Shown piece after piece: positions 3,006 through 24,285 of a DNA stretch of 25,000 nt. Both the position numbers and the translations under genes were made by a program. The stretch is from Chromera velia. Taxonomy: Eukaryota > Sar > Chromeraceae. Every line of letters starts with the position of its first letter. The first letter of the stretch is position 1. Under the pieces are notes generated by a model that saw nothing but the letters and a program-made list of their open reading frames with translations, made no database searches and was not told the DNA's origin. The stretch lies in the NCBI GenBank assembly GCA_018398765.1, contig JAHBMJ010001287.1:1-25000 (forward strand). The letters run 5' to 3'.

Positions 3006-4712
3006 ATGTCAGATCTCAGCGACAAGAGCGCCCTCATGGCGATGATCAAGCAGCGAGACGCTGATCACGCCAAGACCAAGGGCAAGCTCGAGAAGGCGGA
3101 GGCAGGATACATTCGGGTGGTCAAAGAGCTCCGTAGTCTCGAAGCCGAGAAAAAGTCCCTGGTGGGGTTCTTGGAGTCCTACGAGTTGGTAGAGCCAGAG
3201 AAGCCCCTGAAACTGCAGGAAGCTACAAAGAAGCTCGAGGGTGTGTTCTCGTCTGTCCACAAAGAAAGGACGTCGTTTGAGTCCTTTGTCCGTCTCGTCC
3301 TTCCCAATGAGCCCGTGGTGGATGACAGTTTCGGTCCCCAGAGCTCTCGTCTAGACGTGAGCCGTCTGGGCACAGTCGCGTTGGAGGATTTAAGGGTGAG
3401 GTGGCAGGAGACGGAGGAAAGGAAAAGTTTAGATTTGGGGGCACTGCAGGCAGCCATGCGAGATGCAGCTCAAGCGTTCGAAACGCGCGAGCAGTCTCTC
3501 TCTTCTCAGCTTGCGCAGTGGAAGAGTCGAGCAGAGGACTTGCAGCAGCAGGTCGAGACAGTGACTCGCGAGAAGACTCAGCTTCTCCTCGCGTCTCTGC
3601 AAGACCAGAGAGACGGGGTGTTCAAGCCCTTCCACGCAGGTCACTTAGGACGGGGGGCGTCTGCGTTACAGCAGAGTGCAGAGGGTTCGCCTCTCTCTGA
3701 CGCTGACGAGACAGGAAAGAAGGCAGCACGGTTTTCAGCCGACACCGTAGACCGCGAGATGCAAACAGAGACAGAGACCGGTTCAGGGGGAGAAGGGGGG
3801 AGTTCCTCTCCGTCTCCGCGGCCTTTTGTCTCACACGTTGCCGTGCAGGTCAGCCTGTCGTCAGCAGCCCAGCCACCCCCCCCTCCCCAATCCGCCAGCT
3901 CTCCCTCTGAGAGCCCACGCTCCCCCACTCCGTTCGGGCACCCCCGGGCCCCGGCATCCGAGGGGCCCGGGGAGAGGGACGAGTTCGAAGCGGACATGCG
4001 GAATTTGACGCAGCACGGCAGACAGGCAGCCGAGTCATGGGCCCACTACATGCACAAGATGGCGGGTCTCAACGATGGCGGCAGTCCCACTGCTGCAGAG
4101 GCCCATGCCGTCTCTCCCTCTGCAGCTGGAGACGGAAGCGGCCAAGCGGGGCCGTCGTCCCCTGCGGAGTTTGAGAACGGAGACCGTGCGACCGACACAG
4201 GGGGTGCTGTACAGAAGTCAGACGAGCGGTGGGAGAGGGAGATAGAGGCGTTGCGGGCTGAGGTGAAACGCTCACAGGCTGAGTTAGTGCAGCGGGAGGG
4301 GGAGTTGCAGGCCCGCATAGAAGAGCTCTTGCGTCAGATGCGTGGGCTCGAGGAAGATCAGTTTGGTGAGAATGCAATAGCGGTGCTAGCCTCTCAGCAG
4401 GCAGGAAGGGAAGGAGAGGTAGCACGGTTACGTGAGGAGGTCGCGGCTTTGCAAACTCGTGTTGCTGACTCTGATCGCTTCCTGCAGTTGCAGGAAGAAC
4501 AGAGCCAGATGTTGAAGGCGCGAATACGGGAGCTGGAGGGATCCCATCACAGGCAGGGGGTGAACGTTGACTATTTAAAGAACATTGTGGTCTCTTATAT
4601 GGGCTTTGTTCTCAAGAGAGACCACCAAGGTGCGCAGCAGTTAGCAAATGTTATTGCTACTGTTCTTCAATTCGATGCGAATGAAAAAAAACGACTAAAA
4701 ATTGTTGCGTGA
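3006..4712 (+). CDS. GRIP-domain coiled-coil protein (golgin-like)
   Basis: This is a single-exon gene of 568 residues. The C-terminus (about residues 519-563) is a GRIP domain: it has the NVDYLKNIV core with Tyr at about residue 523, followed by a second helix (QLANVIATVLQFDANE). GRIP domains bind the GTPase Arl1 through this conserved Tyr and tether long coiled-coil proteins to the trans-Golgi. Residues 10-65, about 120-200 and about 405-515 are charged heptad-like segments consistent with coiled coil. Residues about 225-330 are Ser/Pro/Gly-rich and probably disordered. The start is chosen because the ATG has a purine at -3 (ACCATG) directly after the AG repeat and the frame is open to a TGA. 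At 568 residues it is short for a golgin. Golgi tethering is inferred from the domain; the coiled-coil body gives no closer identity. Confidence 0.9.
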   Translation: MSDLSDKSALMAMIKQRDADHAKTKGKLEKAEAGYIRVVKELRSLEAEKKSLVGFLESYELVEPEKPLKLQEATKKLEGVFSSVHKERTSFESFVRLVLPNEPVVDDSFGPQSSRLDVSRLGTVALEDLRVRWQETEERKSLDLGALQAAMRDAAQAFETREQSLSSQLAQWKSRAEDLQQQVETVTREKTQLLLASLQDQRDGVFKPFHAGHLGRGASALQQSAEGSPLSDADETGKKAARFSADTVDREMQTETETGSGGEGGSSSPSPRPFVSHVAVQVSLSSAAQPPPPPQSASSPSESPRSPTPFGHPRAPASEGPGERDEFEADMRNLTQHGRQAAESWAHYMHKMAGLNDGGSPTAAEAHAVSPSAAGDGSGQAGPSSPAEFENGDRATDTGGAVQKSDERWEREIEALRAEVKRSQAELVQREGELQARIEELLRQMRGLEEDQFGENAIAVLASQQAGREGEVARLREEVAALQTRVADSDRFLQLQEEQSQMLKARIRELEGSHHRQGVNVDYLKNIVVSYMGFVLKRDHQGAQQLANVIATVLQFDANEKKRLKIVA

Positions 4713-12933: not shown

Positions 12934-13181
12934 GAAAGTGAGAGGGCGACGCGTGGATGCTCCCACACAAGCACCTCGGCCGCCCTCCCCCCGCGCACCC
13001 CCACATAAAAGACGCACATTGACATATTCATCCAATTATCTATCTGTAACTTAGTTTTTCTATCTATGTTTCTGTCTACCTATCCCAATCAATGTGTCTA
13101 CCTGTGTGCCTGCCCAAACCAAGAACACCCCCAATACCGACATTTAGACAATATGTCCCCAGATTTATTATCATGCACTCG

Positions 13182-13933
13182 TCATGACGGTTTTGTTCTT
13201 GCCAAATCGAAATAGTAAAGCGACAGGAAGTAGCAGGACCCGGCGGAAAAGAGGTGCCAAACGGAATGGCCCCGGAAAAGCGAATCGGGCCAACAGAGAA
13301 CGCTCGACTGATCCAGTACCAAAAACGCAAACGCAAACGCACTGCCCGCACCAGCAGGGGTTTTGAGGACCCCATTGAATCCATACTGCGACCACTGCAC
13401 TTGACCACATTCAGACTCAGAGCCAATTCCGACCCAAGAAGGGCGAGGATCTGTACGAACACGAGCAATTGGAAGGCCAGGGGGATCTTTAGACCTTGAA
13501 GAACCAGAACCAATCCAGACAAGCATGCGACCAGGGCGACATAGAGCAGCACGAGGGAGGACCGTTTCGGGACCCACCCCAGCCGAGACAAATTGACCAC
13601 CGAGGGCCCAGCAAGGAAGAGAAAGATGCTGAGGAAGTCCCACCACTGGAAGACAAAAGTGTACGTCGCGTGGCAGAGCCCAGGGGAAATGCCGACAAAG
13701 AAAGTACTGTACGCAAAACAATAGTGAAAACGCCGGTGTACAAATCGCTTTGCTCTAGAGTACTGCCGCAGTTTCCTCAGGATGAGTGCGCCTGCGATCA
13801 AGTAGAAAATGTTGGAATAGGTGTTCACGGGTGTCGCCACCCATGAACACCGAGGACGCTCACACCAGGCAATGTTTGGTCGTCTCCACTCAGCCCACGG
13901 GCAGCCAGAGGGAAGTTCGGAAATAGGGAGCAT
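13182..13933 (-). CDS. Ceramidase-like seven-TM hydrolase (CREST superfamily), frame discontinuity
   Basis: The N-terminal frame starts at 13933 (purine at -3, in-frame TGA upstream) and encodes the start of an alkaline-ceramidase-type domain. Its landmarks are WCERPRC, NTYSNIFYLIAG, then Ser83, His88 and Asp99 in GISPGLCHATYTFVFQWWD. Hydrophobic spans follow to about residue 175. The family's C-terminal motif (WPDSLFRGHSVWHLFSA, with the HxxxH pair at 13254-13268) lies in a different minus-strand frame ending at the TGA at 13182. CREST enzymes are integral-membrane, metal-dependent amide hydrolases using Ser, Asp and three His, all represented across the two frames. The switch needs removal of 2 mod 3 bases. 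It could be a 44-base GT-AG intron at 13451-13494, although this would delete a TM-like segment. Otherwise it is a frameshift or assembly error near 13340-13410. Substrate is unknown; ceramide is only the family default. Confidence 0.72.
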
Positions 13934-19260: not shown

Positions 19261-21192
19261 AAAGCTTTTTGTTCCTCAACTGAGCCGGTCTAGCTCAGTG
19301 ATCTTCAAGCACAGCTGGTAACGAAGGGCAACAATGAATTAAGTGAAGGGCAACTGTTCTCTCTCTGCCTTGAACAGAGAGAAAAGCAGGGAGGCTGGTT
19401 GCATTCCAATGTTTTGCTTTTCCGTTGAGCGCTGAACTGACCTGTTGAATTTTGTTGGTTGGCGCTGTTTGTTTCAATCTTTCATTTGTATCCACGCGTC
19501 ACTGCATGCCTTGAAGGCTTCGACTCAACTGATGGTGTCGATGCGGTGACTCTATCTTGCTGGTCGGTGACAATTGAGTGGCAGGCAGGCAGGCAAACAA
19601 GCAGAAACCGTTCTAAATCTTCTCCCTTACACCTGTTCTTCACTTTCTTCTTTGACCTTGTTTTCTCCCTCCCACGCTCAGACCCTCACAGAGCTCTTCT
19701 TCGGGTGTCTTTGAAAGCTGTGCATGTGAGGTGCTCCAAAGACCTCTGTGCGGGAGGCATGCAGGGAAGCACGGCTCGTGTGCAGAGGAGCTGATAGAGA
19801 GAAACGGCGATTTGCGCAGGAGGCCTGTGAAAAAAGGATGCGGAGCTGTAAATTATTGTCGCTTTCGCTACTGCCTTTCACCCGCAATGGTTTCTGTTCT
19901 AGATCTCAATTCTCAAGTCGAGCCCCCAACTAGTCGTCAGATCTATATGGAAGCAGTCAGAACGATGAAGGGTATTGCATATAAGAATGTGAAGAAGAAT
20001 GTGTAGGAGAATTCAGGGGGAAAGTGTACAACATGCATTGATGTCATCGCATTCGTTCAATCAGTTTCTTCAAAAAATGCCAATCAGTGCGTTTCCTGAT
20101 TGATCGAAATTATTATCGAATGCTATATAATAAATGATAACAAGTATTCTTCTAGGTATTTCCAGGTTTGGCTAGGGTTCGTATAAGTAGGGCAGACGAT
20201 AAACTTGAATGCTGTTATCGACACTAAATGTTACGTTTTAAAACGTACAGCATAGCATACTATAGCATTGATGTTCTAGGTTTTGCTGTAAATGACACTG
20301 GTTGAGAACGATATGTAATTAACGATATTTATGTTTCAATCCAGGTTTTAATACAATGCCGACATTTTATAGTTTGCTTCAATATTTAATTCACGGTCTT
20401 GATTTTTGATTAAAACTACCAAACTAGATCAAACCTAGGACTTTCTAAAACAATGGGTAACAATGGATCAAATTTCATAACTATGTATAATTATGAAAAC
20501 TATTATGAAAACGTCTAAGTCGTATGCTTTAATCTATTCATCTTTTTTTTCCATTGATTTTTTGAGTCTGTACGGAGCAGTCCTATCATCGTGCATAATG
20601 GTTTATTTGATAAGTCTTCCGTGCAGTCTGCACAGATTTCAAGAGCTAGTGACAAAACAGAAATTCAGTTTAATTTGTGTACTTCGCCGCTGCCCCGTTG
20701 GTACGCACTACACCTATTCTTACCTATTCTCCGAAGACGTCGGCGCGCAATGCGCGCCCACTCTCGTGTTGAATTAATGAAGTCCATAAGAAAAAAAAAA
20801 AATGCTGCAACACTAGCTGCAGCAACAGTGCAACAGCACGGATGAGTAAGCAGATCGACATTTGAATGAGCTGTTGTGCTCCTTGTGCAACCGTTTTTGC
20901 CCAAATAAATGACCATATTCCGGGCCAATGGAGTGACTCGTGAAGCGCTCGATGACACCCCTACGTTTGCTTAAAGCTTCGAGGGGCGGTTCTTGCAATT
21001 TGAGTCAGACTATAGATCCCAGAACTCGATCCTTGGCTCTGAAATTCTCCAAAGAGCCACAATGGATGCATTCATAGAAGTGTTGAACATCAGGTTCGAC
21101 CCAGTCTGCTGAGGTTGCCACACTCTGGATCTACACATACCATCTAGCTTTCGCTTCTCTTCACCCAAGGAGCTGTTCGAACGTGCTCCGAG
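19261..21192. other. Intergenic region, largely without genes
   Basis: From 19261 to 19880 the sequence is mixed and has no convincing frame; it probably includes the 3' UTR of the membrane-protein gene. A short frame at 19887-20006 (begins MVSVLDLNSQVE, ends TGTAG, 39 residues) has coding-like composition and might be a terminal exon or a small gene, but I cannot assign it. The stretch 20010-20560 is strongly AT-rich. The last 150 bases precede the nuclease gene and should hold its promoter. No tRNA or other RNA gene was recognised. Confidence 0.45.
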
Positions 21193-24100
21193 ATGAGACG
21201 CATCGCCTCGACGCTCTCTCGCGGTGCTACAGACCGTCTACTCTGCCCTGCCGTATCCTCCCTTTCTCGAAGAACTTCTCTGTTATCATCAGAGAGAGAC
21301 AGGAATCGTCACAGGGTTCAACCCGTCGCATGTCAGAGTTGGAAGGATGATGCAGAACCAAGGGACGGCATTGCAGACACAAGCCGTAGTCCTGAAACCA
21401 CTTCCCGTCGCAGTCTTGCCTTTCTAAACTGGTCGTCTCTTTCGAGTCGTTTCTTGGCTTGTGCAGACGGCGTATCTTTGAAAGGCGAGGATAATCACAA
21501 ACAGGAGGTTCATTCTCTCCCCTTTCTCTCACATGGCCACTCTGTGCATCAGTTTTTTCTGATCTATGCTCAGGCACATCTTGGGGAGAGGTGCCATCCC
21601 TTCCCCTATGCTCAGCCTGATTGCCCAGCCCTTCAACAGCGTAGATGGTTCGGTTCGAGTACTGATTCCGCTTCTGCCTGTGTCATTTGTGTAGCGGAAG
21701 CAGCCGGGGGGGAAACTGCTGACAGAGGGTTCCTGGCTCGAGAGCATTCCCATGCTTCAGGTTATTCAAAAGTTGAAGGTCGGGGGGCAGCGTCAGGTGA
21801 GGGTGATGGTGAGACAGGCCCTGACCCTGCCACTTCCCCAGTGGACCCGCAAAATCCCTCTCCCCCATCTAGTCTAAAGAAAAAAGATGATCGTCAGCGT
21901 CGCACCCTTTGTCCACATGGAAGGCAAAGATATTTGTGCAAAGAATGTGGTGGTCGGGGGATCTGTGTTCATGGAAGACAGCGTAGCCATTGCAAGGAGT
22001 GTCGTGGGAAAGGAATATGCGAACATGGGCGTCGCTGATACATATGCAAAGAGTGCGGAGGGAAAGGAATATGCGAGCATGGGCGACACCGCCATACGTG
22101 TAAGGAGTGCGGGGGAAAAGGAATTTGTGAACACTACCGCCAACGGAATCTTTGCAGGGATTGTGGGGGCAAAGCAATATGTGAACACGGACGTCAGCGC
22201 AGCATTTGTAAGGAGTGTGGAGAGAAAGGGATCTGTGAACACGGTCGAAGACGAAACGAATGCAAAGAATGCGGGGGAAGTTCGGTTTGTGTTCATGGTC
22301 GGATCAAATATTCATGTCGGGACTGCCGTGGGAAAGGTGTTTGTGAGCATGGGCGTCAACGCAGCAAGTGTCGCCAGTGTGGAGGGGGGGGGATTTGTGA
22401 GCACGGCCGTATGCGTTCTCGATGCAGGGAGTGTGGGGGTGGCAGTTTCTGTCCACATGGTCGTTTACGCACAACATGCAGAGAGTGTGGAGGCGGGAGT
22501 TTTTGTGAGCACGACAAGCGCAGAAGTGAGTGTGCCGAATGTCAGAAAGACAATCCTGCCTTTGCCAAAAGACGTGAGCAAAAGAGGGTTAAATACCAAG
22601 AGGATATTGGATTCCGAATAGCACACACAGTAAGGCGATCTGTATCGCGGTGCCTCAGTGCTCTGCGCGTCGGGAAGTCCCCGTCCGAAAAGAAACGCAC
22701 CCAAGAGTACCTCGGTTGTTCGTTCGAAGACCTCAAAGCCCACCTAGAGAAGGACGACTTCCACGGCAACCCCGGAATGTCGTGGGAGAATTACGGGAGT
22801 TTGTGGCACGTCGACCATATTGTGCCCATTCAGTATCGGGGGGCAGACGGTCAGAAGCCAGACTTAGAGACCCGAATTGCCCGTCTCCATTTCTTCAACC
22901 TGCAGCCGATGTGGTCCGAAGAGAACCTCCGGAAAGGAAACAGGTTTGTGGGGAAACCGCCACCGATTTTCCCTGGTCCAGACAGCAGCAGACTGAAAGT
23001 CAGCACCACACACCTACCCTTTCACAAAGGTCCTGCGAACACTAGTGGGGTCGGATCAATCCGAAGTCTGCATGCGCTTTTTGGCTCTGCTTCCTCTGCG
23101 AAGGCTTTCTCTCACACTGCCCCACTCAGCTGGAGACATTCTGTTGTTCCGCAGCACTCGTTGTGGGGGACAATGCGAGCGGACAATCTGAATGAGAGGA
23201 ATAGAACTTTCCCCCCCGGAACACAGACCAGGTTTCTGACTGTTCCTCTCCAAAGTGCGCATGGGATCAAGGGGTGCCAAAGAGGAGAGACCGCTCCTCT
23301 TGAATGCTGCAGCGAGAGAAAAGGGAATTCCACTTGTCTCTGTGGAGACTGTACTGTTCCACAGAAAGAGGGGGGAGGGGGCGATACTGAAAAGCAGCAT
23401 GGCCAGCTCGAGAGAAATTTGTCCCCGACATATCGTTCTTTGCACCAAGTCTCGAAAAAAAGTCTCTGTCCCCATGGAAGGAAGCTGTATGACTGCAAAC
23501 AGTGTGGGGGGAGTGGGATTTGCCAGCATGGTCGCCGTCGGAGGCAGTGCAAAGAGTGTGGGGGTTCACAGGTCTGTCAGCACGGACGTTATCGACCGAC
23601 GTGCAAAGAATGTGGAGGGTCACAAATATGTGAACATGGTCGGTTTCGGCCGACATGTAAAGAGTGTGGGGGTTCACAGGTTTGTGAACATGGGCGTATT
23701 CGTAGGAGGTGCAGAGAATGCGGTGGGAGTGGAATCTGCGAGCACGGTCGCCAATGCACTCATTGTCGGGATTGTGGAGGGAGTCAAATTTGTGAAGATG
23801 ACAGGCAGAGAAATAACTGTCCTCAGTGTCAAAAGGACAACCCTGTGTATTTGGCAAGGAGAGAGCGAGAGAGAAGCACTGTGAGAGCTCGATACAGGGA
23901 CGATGCCATCTTTCGAATTACCCAAGTGTCACGAGTCGCTGTGGCAAAGCGACTAGCAGCCATCCGAGCAGGCAGTTTCTCCCTGTCCCCGCGTAAAAGG
24001 ATGCACGAGTATCTCGGTTGTTCGTTCCAAGACCTCAAAGCCCACCTCGAGACGGACGACTTCCACGGCAACCCCGGAATGTCGTGGGAGAATTACGGGA

Positions 24101-24285
24101 GTTTGTGGCACGTTGACTATATTGTGCCTGTCATGTTTGTGGGTCCTGACGGTCGGAGACCAGACATGGAGATACTCGTTTCCCGTCTCCATTTCTTCAA
24201 CCTCCAACCAATGTGGTCGGAGGAGAATCGACGCAAAGGCAATCGTTACATAGGCAAGCCTCCATTCTCTGGTAATTCTTCTTGA
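21193..24285 (+). CDS. Duplicated zinc-knuckle array + HNH endonuclease protein, interrupted by an in-frame TGA
   Basis: The frame from the ATG at 21193 (purine at -3) runs 1030 codons to a TGA at 24283 with one internal TGA at 22036-22038. Order of parts: residues 1-237, Ser/Arg-rich, with the first 30 almost free of acid and like a mitochondrial presequence; 239-454, twelve 18-residue Cys/His knuckles; 506-590, HNH domain one; 590-756, Ser-rich linker; 758-883, seven knuckles; 940-1023, HNH domain two. HNH domains of this type (GMSWENYG, WHVDHIVP, FNLQPMWSEEN) are metal-dependent DNA nucleases known from homing endonucleases. The linker is open for about 160 codons, which argues for one fused gene. 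If the TGA terminates translation, only a 280-residue piece with two complete knuckles is made, so the gene may be a recent pseudogene. A start at 22411 within a repeat is possible but poor. Its biological role is unknown. Confidence 0.78.
21907..22554 (+). repeat. Array 1: twelve 54-base repeats encoding Cys/His knuckles
   Basis: Each 18-residue unit follows C-x-H-G-R-x-R-x-x-C-[KR]-[ED]-C-G-G-x-x-[IV], placing Cys, His, Cys, Cys in a spacing suited to binding zinc. The last unit (CEHDKRRSECAECQKDN) loses the GG and leads into the nuclease. Units differ at many third positions, so the array is not freshly amplified. Repeat 3 has TGA where the second Arg belongs. Such HGR-type knuckles recur in protist and large-virus proteins, but I know no established function. 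Confidence 0.9.
22708..22962 (+). other. HNH nuclease domain, copy 1 (intact motif)
   Basis: This is a domain within the open frame. It shows YLGCSFEDLKAHLE, then GMSWENYGSLWHVDHIVPI with the Asp-His pair at 22813-22818, then FFNLQPMWSEENLRKGN. In HNH nucleases the His after Asp acts as the general base, the middle Asn orients it, and the last motif (here Asn instead of His) helps bind the metal. All expected residues are visible, so this copy could be catalytic. Confidence 0.85.
23464..23841 (+). repeat. Array 2: seven 54-base repeats encoding Cys/His knuckles
   Basis: It has the same 18-residue plan as array 1, but most units end GGSQ or GGSG rather than GGKG or GGGS, showing independent homogenisation inside each array. 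The sixth unit has a Cys in place of the second Arg (GRQCTHC). The seventh replaces the ligand His with Asp (CEDDRQRNNC), which may weaken zinc binding, and again leads through QCQKDN into the nuclease domain. Confidence 0.9.
24010..24264 (+). other. HNH nuclease domain, copy 2 (catalytic His replaced by Tyr)
   Basis: This is a domain within the open frame, closely matching copy 1. Its central motif reads WHVDYIVPV: the codon at 24118-24120 is TAT where copy 1 has CAT. The Asn-Leu-Gln-Pro and EENRRKGN parts are kept. Because the changed residue is the expected general base, this copy is probably inactive for cleavage yet may still bind DNA. That reading is inferred from family knowledge. Confidence 0.82.

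Follow-up and report, generated by a model that had tools for sequence, protein, structure and literature searches.

Polinton-like viruses are known to carry HNH and GIY-YIG homing endonucleases, in a study whose main text does not use the word zinc (PMC12220804). A TALE-inspired screen covered repeats of 30–43 residues, and none of six words, such as zinc or Chromera, occurs in its main text (PMC5472282). We analysed 25,000 nucleotides of the alga Chromera velia (contig JAHBMJ010001287.1, positions 1 to 25,000 of the forward strand; hereafter the window), in which a gene at 21193–24285 joins arrays of putative zinc knuckles to HNH nuclease domains. The earlier note on this DNA knew of no described function for the combination. 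In open-licence literature we found no paper on a knuckle array joined to an HNH or on such arrays in chromerids, an absence that is no proof, but the combination is not unique to the alga, as viral contigs carry array and HNH too. We propose, with confidence evenly balanced, that the gene belongs to a virus-type endonuclease family, with the array as modular address reader and the HNH as cutter, which would have been captured, doubled and multiplied in the alga.

Translation of the plus strand of 21193–24285 confirmed the order read earlier: 12 knuckles and a first HNH, a linker, then 7 knuckles and a second HNH. The knuckle unit is C-x-H-x6-C-x2-C and recurs every 18 residues (54 nucleotides), array 1 starting at 21910. 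A degenerate form of this pattern occurs 7 times in the window; 100 shuffles gave a mean of 0.00. The features of the locus are as follows.

20924 to 21192, plus strand: 5′ flank alike in the window and in its nearest paralog, L009, presumably promoter or 5′ untranslated region (82% by blastn over a 502-base match from 20924; flanks before 20924 unrelated)
21193 to 21909, plus strand: N-terminal region with a putative presequence-like start (first 35 residues of 13 long-frame paralogs, 4–8 K/R and 0–3 D/E)
21910 to 22542, plus strand: array 1, 12 CHCC knuckles at an 18-residue period (translation, knuckle pattern)
22036 to 22038, plus strand: in-frame TGA in knuckle 3 (an open reading frame ends at the same position)
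22543 to 22704, plus strand: connector 1 (sequence; paralog alignment A2)
22705 to 22953, plus strand: HNH domain 1 (WHVDHIVP ... NLQPMW ... N ... KGN), residues intact (alignments; fold model)
22954 to 23466, plus strand: linker (translation; fast-evolving in 13 paralogs, pooled ratio of nonsynonymous to synonymous change, dN/dS, 0.41)
23467 to 23829, plus strand: array 2, 7 knuckles, the last without His (translation)
23830 to 24006, plus strand: connector 2 (sequence; paralog alignment A2)
24007 to 24255, plus strand: HNH domain 2 (translation, alignments)
24118 to 24120, plus strand: Tyr codon replacing the conserved catalytic His in HNH 2 (alignment A3, His in 22 of 23 rows)
24283 to 24285, plus strand: terminal stop, TGA (open reading frame list, translation)

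The claim that all of this lies in a single open frame did not hold, as the TGA at 22036–22038 halts the frame in knuckle 3; the open reading frames listed for the locus run from 21193 to 22038 and then, from a later ATG, from 22411 to 24285. TGA is an ordinary stop in the knuckle-HNH family, since it terminates 7 of the 16 family copies listed. The HNH 2 motif reads WHVDYIVP, with a Tyr unique to the window copy among the 23 rows of alignment A3; the His that it replaces has a catalytic role in HNH enzymes. Knuckle 7 of array 2, which reads CED, has lost its His ligand. With a TGA in knuckle 3 and a Tyr in HNH 2, the window gene is best read as a decayed member of its family. In the part left open, comparison with L009 (itself broken) gave ratios of 0.19 in the HNH and 0.78 in the linker, and constraint on the HNH of the window copy has lasted. 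We also asked whether the linker duplicates the N-terminal region, and rejected the idea (profile comparison probability 0.0).

Searching the 177.8-Mb genome assembly (4040 contigs) with the gene returned at least 186 matches. Grouping of 120 of the 186 match rows gave at least 71 loci on 69 contigs; for locus C1913:12147 the row used ends slightly before the HNH, and one or more other rows were left out. Two modules are present at 49 of the 71 loci and one at 22, so the duplication described in the earlier note is real but nothing peculiar to this gene. Both modules lie in one stop-free frame of at least 850 residues at 28 of the 49 two-module loci; 15 have a stop inside the match, and the other 6, including the window, have shorter or differing frames. 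We retrieved 20 paralog loci, ten of which carry both HNH motifs in frame (873–1071 residues from the first likely Met). These ten, with L014, L017 and L022, whose frames stop within module 2, formed the set for dN/dS, seven broken, single-module or N-holding paralogs being left out. Pooled over the 78 pairs of this set, dN/dS was 0.13 in the HNH and 0.09 at knuckle positions that are neither ligands nor variable (the ligand class being zero by construction of the pattern), as against 0.23 in the connector, 0.41 in the linker and 0.58 in the N-terminal region. These ratios mark HNH and knuckles as under strong purifying selection in the algal family.

A tree built from 32 algal modules and 3 outgroups placed all 11 rows labelled as second modules in one clade (support 0.95); the doubling is therefore old. 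Also in this clade are L012, which has a single module, one module of L024, and the first module of both L010 and L014. We infer that one doubling preceded the spread of the family, with some exchange since. As a separate observation, the second modules of L022 and L026 run on into a stretch resembling a C2H2 finger.

Likeness between near paralogs begins about 270 bases upstream of the ATG and ends 0–120 bases downstream of the stop; the flanks of the retrieved paralogs are mostly unrelated. Such dispersed, gene-sized units could represent a still- or once-mobile homing or transposing nuclease gene, with selection acting on spread and not on algal benefit. Consistent with this, the long knuckle-HNH frames are intronless, while light-harvesting matches in the genome (n = 58) are often partial, as in split genes, and a stop inside the match marks decayed copies among the two-module loci. 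However, the copies are old, since among the ten closest of the 78 pairs all but three have a proportion of synonymous differences (pS) of at least 0.64. The two closest pairs examined are still constrained in the HNH (ratios 0.17 and 0.19), and we recognised neither terminal repeats nor target duplications at the copies. A selfish element seems fairly unlikely, and we favour a captured endonuclease family kept under selection. The ends of the copies showed no clear poly-A tails or common motifs beyond AT-rich 3′ flanks and GTGTTGCA-like upstream words. A dispersed repeat rich in GTTGCA-type words lies upstream of the gene, in a short stretch at about 20721–20783 of the window to which about 30 of 38 search matches are due.

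The HNH assignment is supported by residues and relatives and, weakly, by the fold. W-H-x-D-H, N-L-Q-P and N are invariant or nearly so in 33 algal HNH domains and in alignment A3, so that the family possesses the core His, Asn and helix Asn, with Tyr for His in domain 2 of the window. A model of 22180–22953 has strands at 209–213 and 241–245 and a helix at 246–252, the strand-strand-helix order expected of a beta-beta-alpha-metal core. The earlier note had made its claim depend on this fold, to which the model points weakly: the structural matches are weak, but 13 of the 18 VIA rows listed by a structure search name an HNH domain or Cas9. Three more of these rows, BrxU, Cap5 and EXOG, are presumably nucleases. 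No convincing Pfam or NCBIfam model was found for the knuckle-HNH protein, and PHROG 28061 matched the HNH at 6.7e-6. By tblastn at an expect value of 0.01, 113 of 50,697 phage records matched, which places the HNH core with the phage and virus kind. The earlier remark that such HNH domains are typical of homing endonucleases is supported in part: the domain is of the phage and virus kind, and a mobile-element context was seen for its viral relatives L189 and L194. Viruses often carry the HNH core: of the stretches that matched its pattern, 557 of 597 and 578 of 600 were confirmed. None of the 160 HNH viral loci kept (80 from each of the two pattern searches) carried two array units. Roseobacter phage CRP-823, the best-covering phage match, was rejected as a full relative, having the HNH and no array.

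Arrays were recovered by searching viral sequences for the knuckle itself, which gave 13 stretches with a strict pattern and 92 with a looser, two-unit one. In 83 loci from both patterns, 26 frames at 24 loci carry at least two units at the exact 18-residue period. Three of the 26 array frames carry the same HNH as the alga: L189, and L194 and L197, two places on one contig. The L194 stretch also encodes an A32-type packaging ATPase (PF04665, 8.3e-17), a telomere-resolvase-like protein of the ResT/TelK type (4e-11) and one of the GIY-YIG type (5e-7), whereas the capsid-like open reading frame of the stretch had no Pfam match. A close homolog of the algal gene thus lies on one contig with an A32-like ATPase, and the contig fits a polinton-like virus, as a putative type. 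The array-HNH gene stands twice on this 34.7-kb contig in opposite orientation, perhaps within a terminal inverted repeat. The L194 protein gave 243 matches in the algal genome, the best at 8e-66 and about 50% identity. A telomere resolvase found no match in the algal genome, the control matching in one genome.

Other viral arrays are joined to other domains. We scanned the C-terminal domains of 10 of the 26 array frames: 9 match endonuclease PHROGs, several of the matches also including anti-sigma families, and with Pfam only L195 matched (Endonuclease_7, above cut-off). Beyond these matches we presume the nuclease classes of the array partners from motifs. Because one array type is joined to several nuclease types, it would fit a portable recognition module. 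No endonuclease VII-type partner was matched in the algal genome, in a search that had no positive control. Tailed phages may be among the array carriers, as the array-bearing stretch L199 has a weak baseplate-type match; the array protein of L198 matched none of the 50,697 phage records. In the prokaryote genome collection, the strict knuckle pattern found nothing. The looser pattern picked out 5 stretches there; the units are real in 3, and 2 of these 3 have an HNH-like domain by motif. Array and HNH-like proteins stand on a Poseidoniales single-cell contig (L288) and on a contig of an Opitutaceae metagenome-assembled genome (L286), which may be viral DNA.

Some of the L194 matches in the algal genome are arrays without an HNH. 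We retrieved ten of these (L291–L300), with 13–39 units each, the longest being L296, whose 39 units share one frame. Some are damaged: a stop interrupts the array of L291, and L300 leaves the repeat as after a frame shift. Averaged over the ten stretches, the between-unit proportion of nonsynonymous differences (pN) was 0.54 at position 6 of the unit and 0.55 at position 9, with an overall pS of 0.40. These positions are not mutation hot spots, because pS at codons 6 and 9 was 0.40–0.41. The ratio of dN at positions 6 and 9 to dS exceeded 1 in 9 of the 10 arrays (0.73 in L293), with a bootstrap interval excluding 1 in 6 of the 10, and it was 0.10–0.40 at the other non-ligand positions. Positions 6 and 9 were chosen after inspection of the sequences, a choice answered in part by a leave-one-out check, in which they ranked as the top two for variability in each of the 10 choices. 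The frequent residues are I, Q, R, then E, V, K at position 6 and Q, V, R, K at position 9, an alphabet that would suit base contacts. Variation confined in this way suggests that the repeats could read nucleic-acid sequence.

The order of the units was also compared between paralogs. L295, L297 and L299 have N- and C-terminal flanks 87–92% identical in nucleotides and unrelated 6/9 strings, 274, 172 and 164 of 300 shuffles reaching the observed score of the three pairs. In three more distant pairs, L292/L293 showed some common order (19 of 300 shuffles reached the score) and the other two none. Across the genome, the flank of the L295/L297/L299 type matches 8 times. A comparison of the units at the array ends of different paralogs gave an identity of 0.645 for the first units of group B against 0.148 when shuffled, in an imperfect split that we did not use as evidence. 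Rapid re-addressing of this kind would be explained if the family were a domesticated defence that cuts invading viral DNA, its arrays holding viral addresses, and a large family under selection is in keeping with that. However, there is no link to any virus of the alga, the array-only proteins have no visible cutter, a short-read assembly could scramble array order, and L292/L293 retain some common order. We consider such a defence role unlikely.

Three observations weigh against reading positions 6 and 9 as an address throughout the family. In viral arrays, pN at 6 and 9 (0.58, 0.70) is not above that at 16 and 17 (0.63, 0.69), nor above pS (0.69). HNH-fused algal arrays vary alike at 6, 8, 9, 16 and 17 (0.64–0.69), below a pS of 0.89. 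Matching units of close HNH paralogs are conserved, with a ratio of 0.30. The excess at two positions is thus a property of the array-only branch, and address reading by nuclease arrays would be an extension from it. The modular binding surface proposed earlier accordingly gains support from the hypervariable unit positions of array-only relatives, but not from viral or HNH-fused arrays.

In the endonuclease family that we propose, each module would consist of an address, the tandem 18-residue CHCC zinc knuckles, followed by a cutter, the HNH. The array would recognise a specific stretch of nucleic acid, most likely of DNA, one unit after another; residues 6 and 9 of every unit would read it, and conserved Arg residues at 5 and 7 would perhaps hold the backbone. 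The HNH would nick near the bound site, and a chain with two modules could make a paired cut or a linked pair of nicks. The array-HNH proteins of viruses probably serve as free-standing nucleases, either of the homing type or for competition between genomes. In the alga, the gene would have been captured, presumably from such viruses, doubled once and kept under selection, and it now stands at no fewer than 71 places. A broader proposal, which we put forward tentatively and with less than even confidence, is that the 18-residue CHCC knuckle represents a new kind of modular repeat that reads nucleic acids through a variable pair, residues 6 and 9. Viruses would carry it on several different nuclease domains, and one alga would have made from it a large re-addressable repertoire with and without nuclease arms, in effect natural two-armed programmable nucleases.

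The basic start of the N-terminal region, with the charges listed above for 13 paralogs, and the size of this nuclear family would also suit an organelle RNA or DNA factor, a knuckle solenoid that would bind organelle transcripts or genomes much as PPR proteins do, but built on zinc, and would use its HNH in processing. But the N-terminal region evolves fast (0.58) and L189 and L194 lack such a long one, which makes this quite unlikely. A metal store is most improbable. Cys-rich arrays of up to 39 units would then buffer zinc or another metal, and positions 6 and 9 would vary through loss of constraint; yet in homogenised arrays these two positions change more than synonymous sites do, and arrays are fused to nucleases.

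Elsewhere in the window, 3006–4712 (plus strand) encodes a golgin-like coiled-coil protein with a C-terminal GRIP domain (PF01465, 8.8e-12) and 13076–13933 (minus strand) a membrane protein of the ceramidase family (PF05875, 2.6e-11). A light-harvesting protein of the genome had no close chain among solved structures. The 58 light-harvesting matches, together with 11 to the alveolin family, make a photosynthetic alveolate the likely source, though the alveolin family also matched in Caulobacter, a bacterial control. A photosystem II family had no match, so the assembly perhaps lacks the plastid genome.

If the arrays read sequence, they would represent a compact modular reader, at 18 residues per unit, that occurs naturally joined to cutters, and the multiplication of a virus-type nuclease family in a photosynthetic protist would be an unusual case. 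With an uncatalogued repeat joining HNH- and endonuclease VII-type domains in viruses, site-finding by such nucleases becomes directly testable.

Among catalogued repeats, the retroviral nucleocapsid CCHC knuckle (C-x2-C-x4-H-x4-C) resembles the algal unit as a small putative zinc unit with basic residues, but the C-x-H-x6-C-x2-C spacing differs and no knuckle family appeared among the Pfam matches. Indeed, the repeat had no convincing match in Pfam families or solved structures: arrays matched DUF7895 (1.1e-5, in 3 of 10 members) and Acb2_Tad1_hairpin weakly, and a solved-structure sequence search listed the chain CAP REPEAT at 7.2e-6, with no stretch passing alone. The units would presumably bind zinc. 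TALE repeats offer a likeness of another kind, in tandem repeats alike save for two positions per unit and in alike-flanked paralogs with differing strings. Diversifying change at fixed positions was found in the array-only proteins and not seen in viral or HNH-fused arrays. The 18-residue CHCC unit is a putative zinc knuckle with neither the sequence nor the length of a TALE repeat, and a residue-to-base code is only a candidate.

The HNH endonucleases of phages and viruses (MSWENYG/WHIDHIxP/NLQPLW kind; annotated HNH endonuclease, endonuclease VII or hypothetical) share the connector and HNH core of the alga, at 38–52% identity in the viral loci listed and 40–48% in the phage rows listed. 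They lack the long knuckle array, and many of the 45 proteins shown carry a short N-terminal C-x2-C motif pair instead. The array-HNH proteins of the polinton-like virus contigs (L189, L194/L197) are likewise close, with seven units, the same 18-residue period, the same HNH and about 50% identity to the algal copies; unlike these, they have a single module and a short N-terminal region. From the homing endonucleases of polinton-like viruses with NUMOD or AP2 parts (PMC12220804), the algal module differs in its uncatalogued CHCC repeat array and in a homing role that is only a candidate; what they have in common is a nuclease joined to a modular recognition part in mobile DNA.
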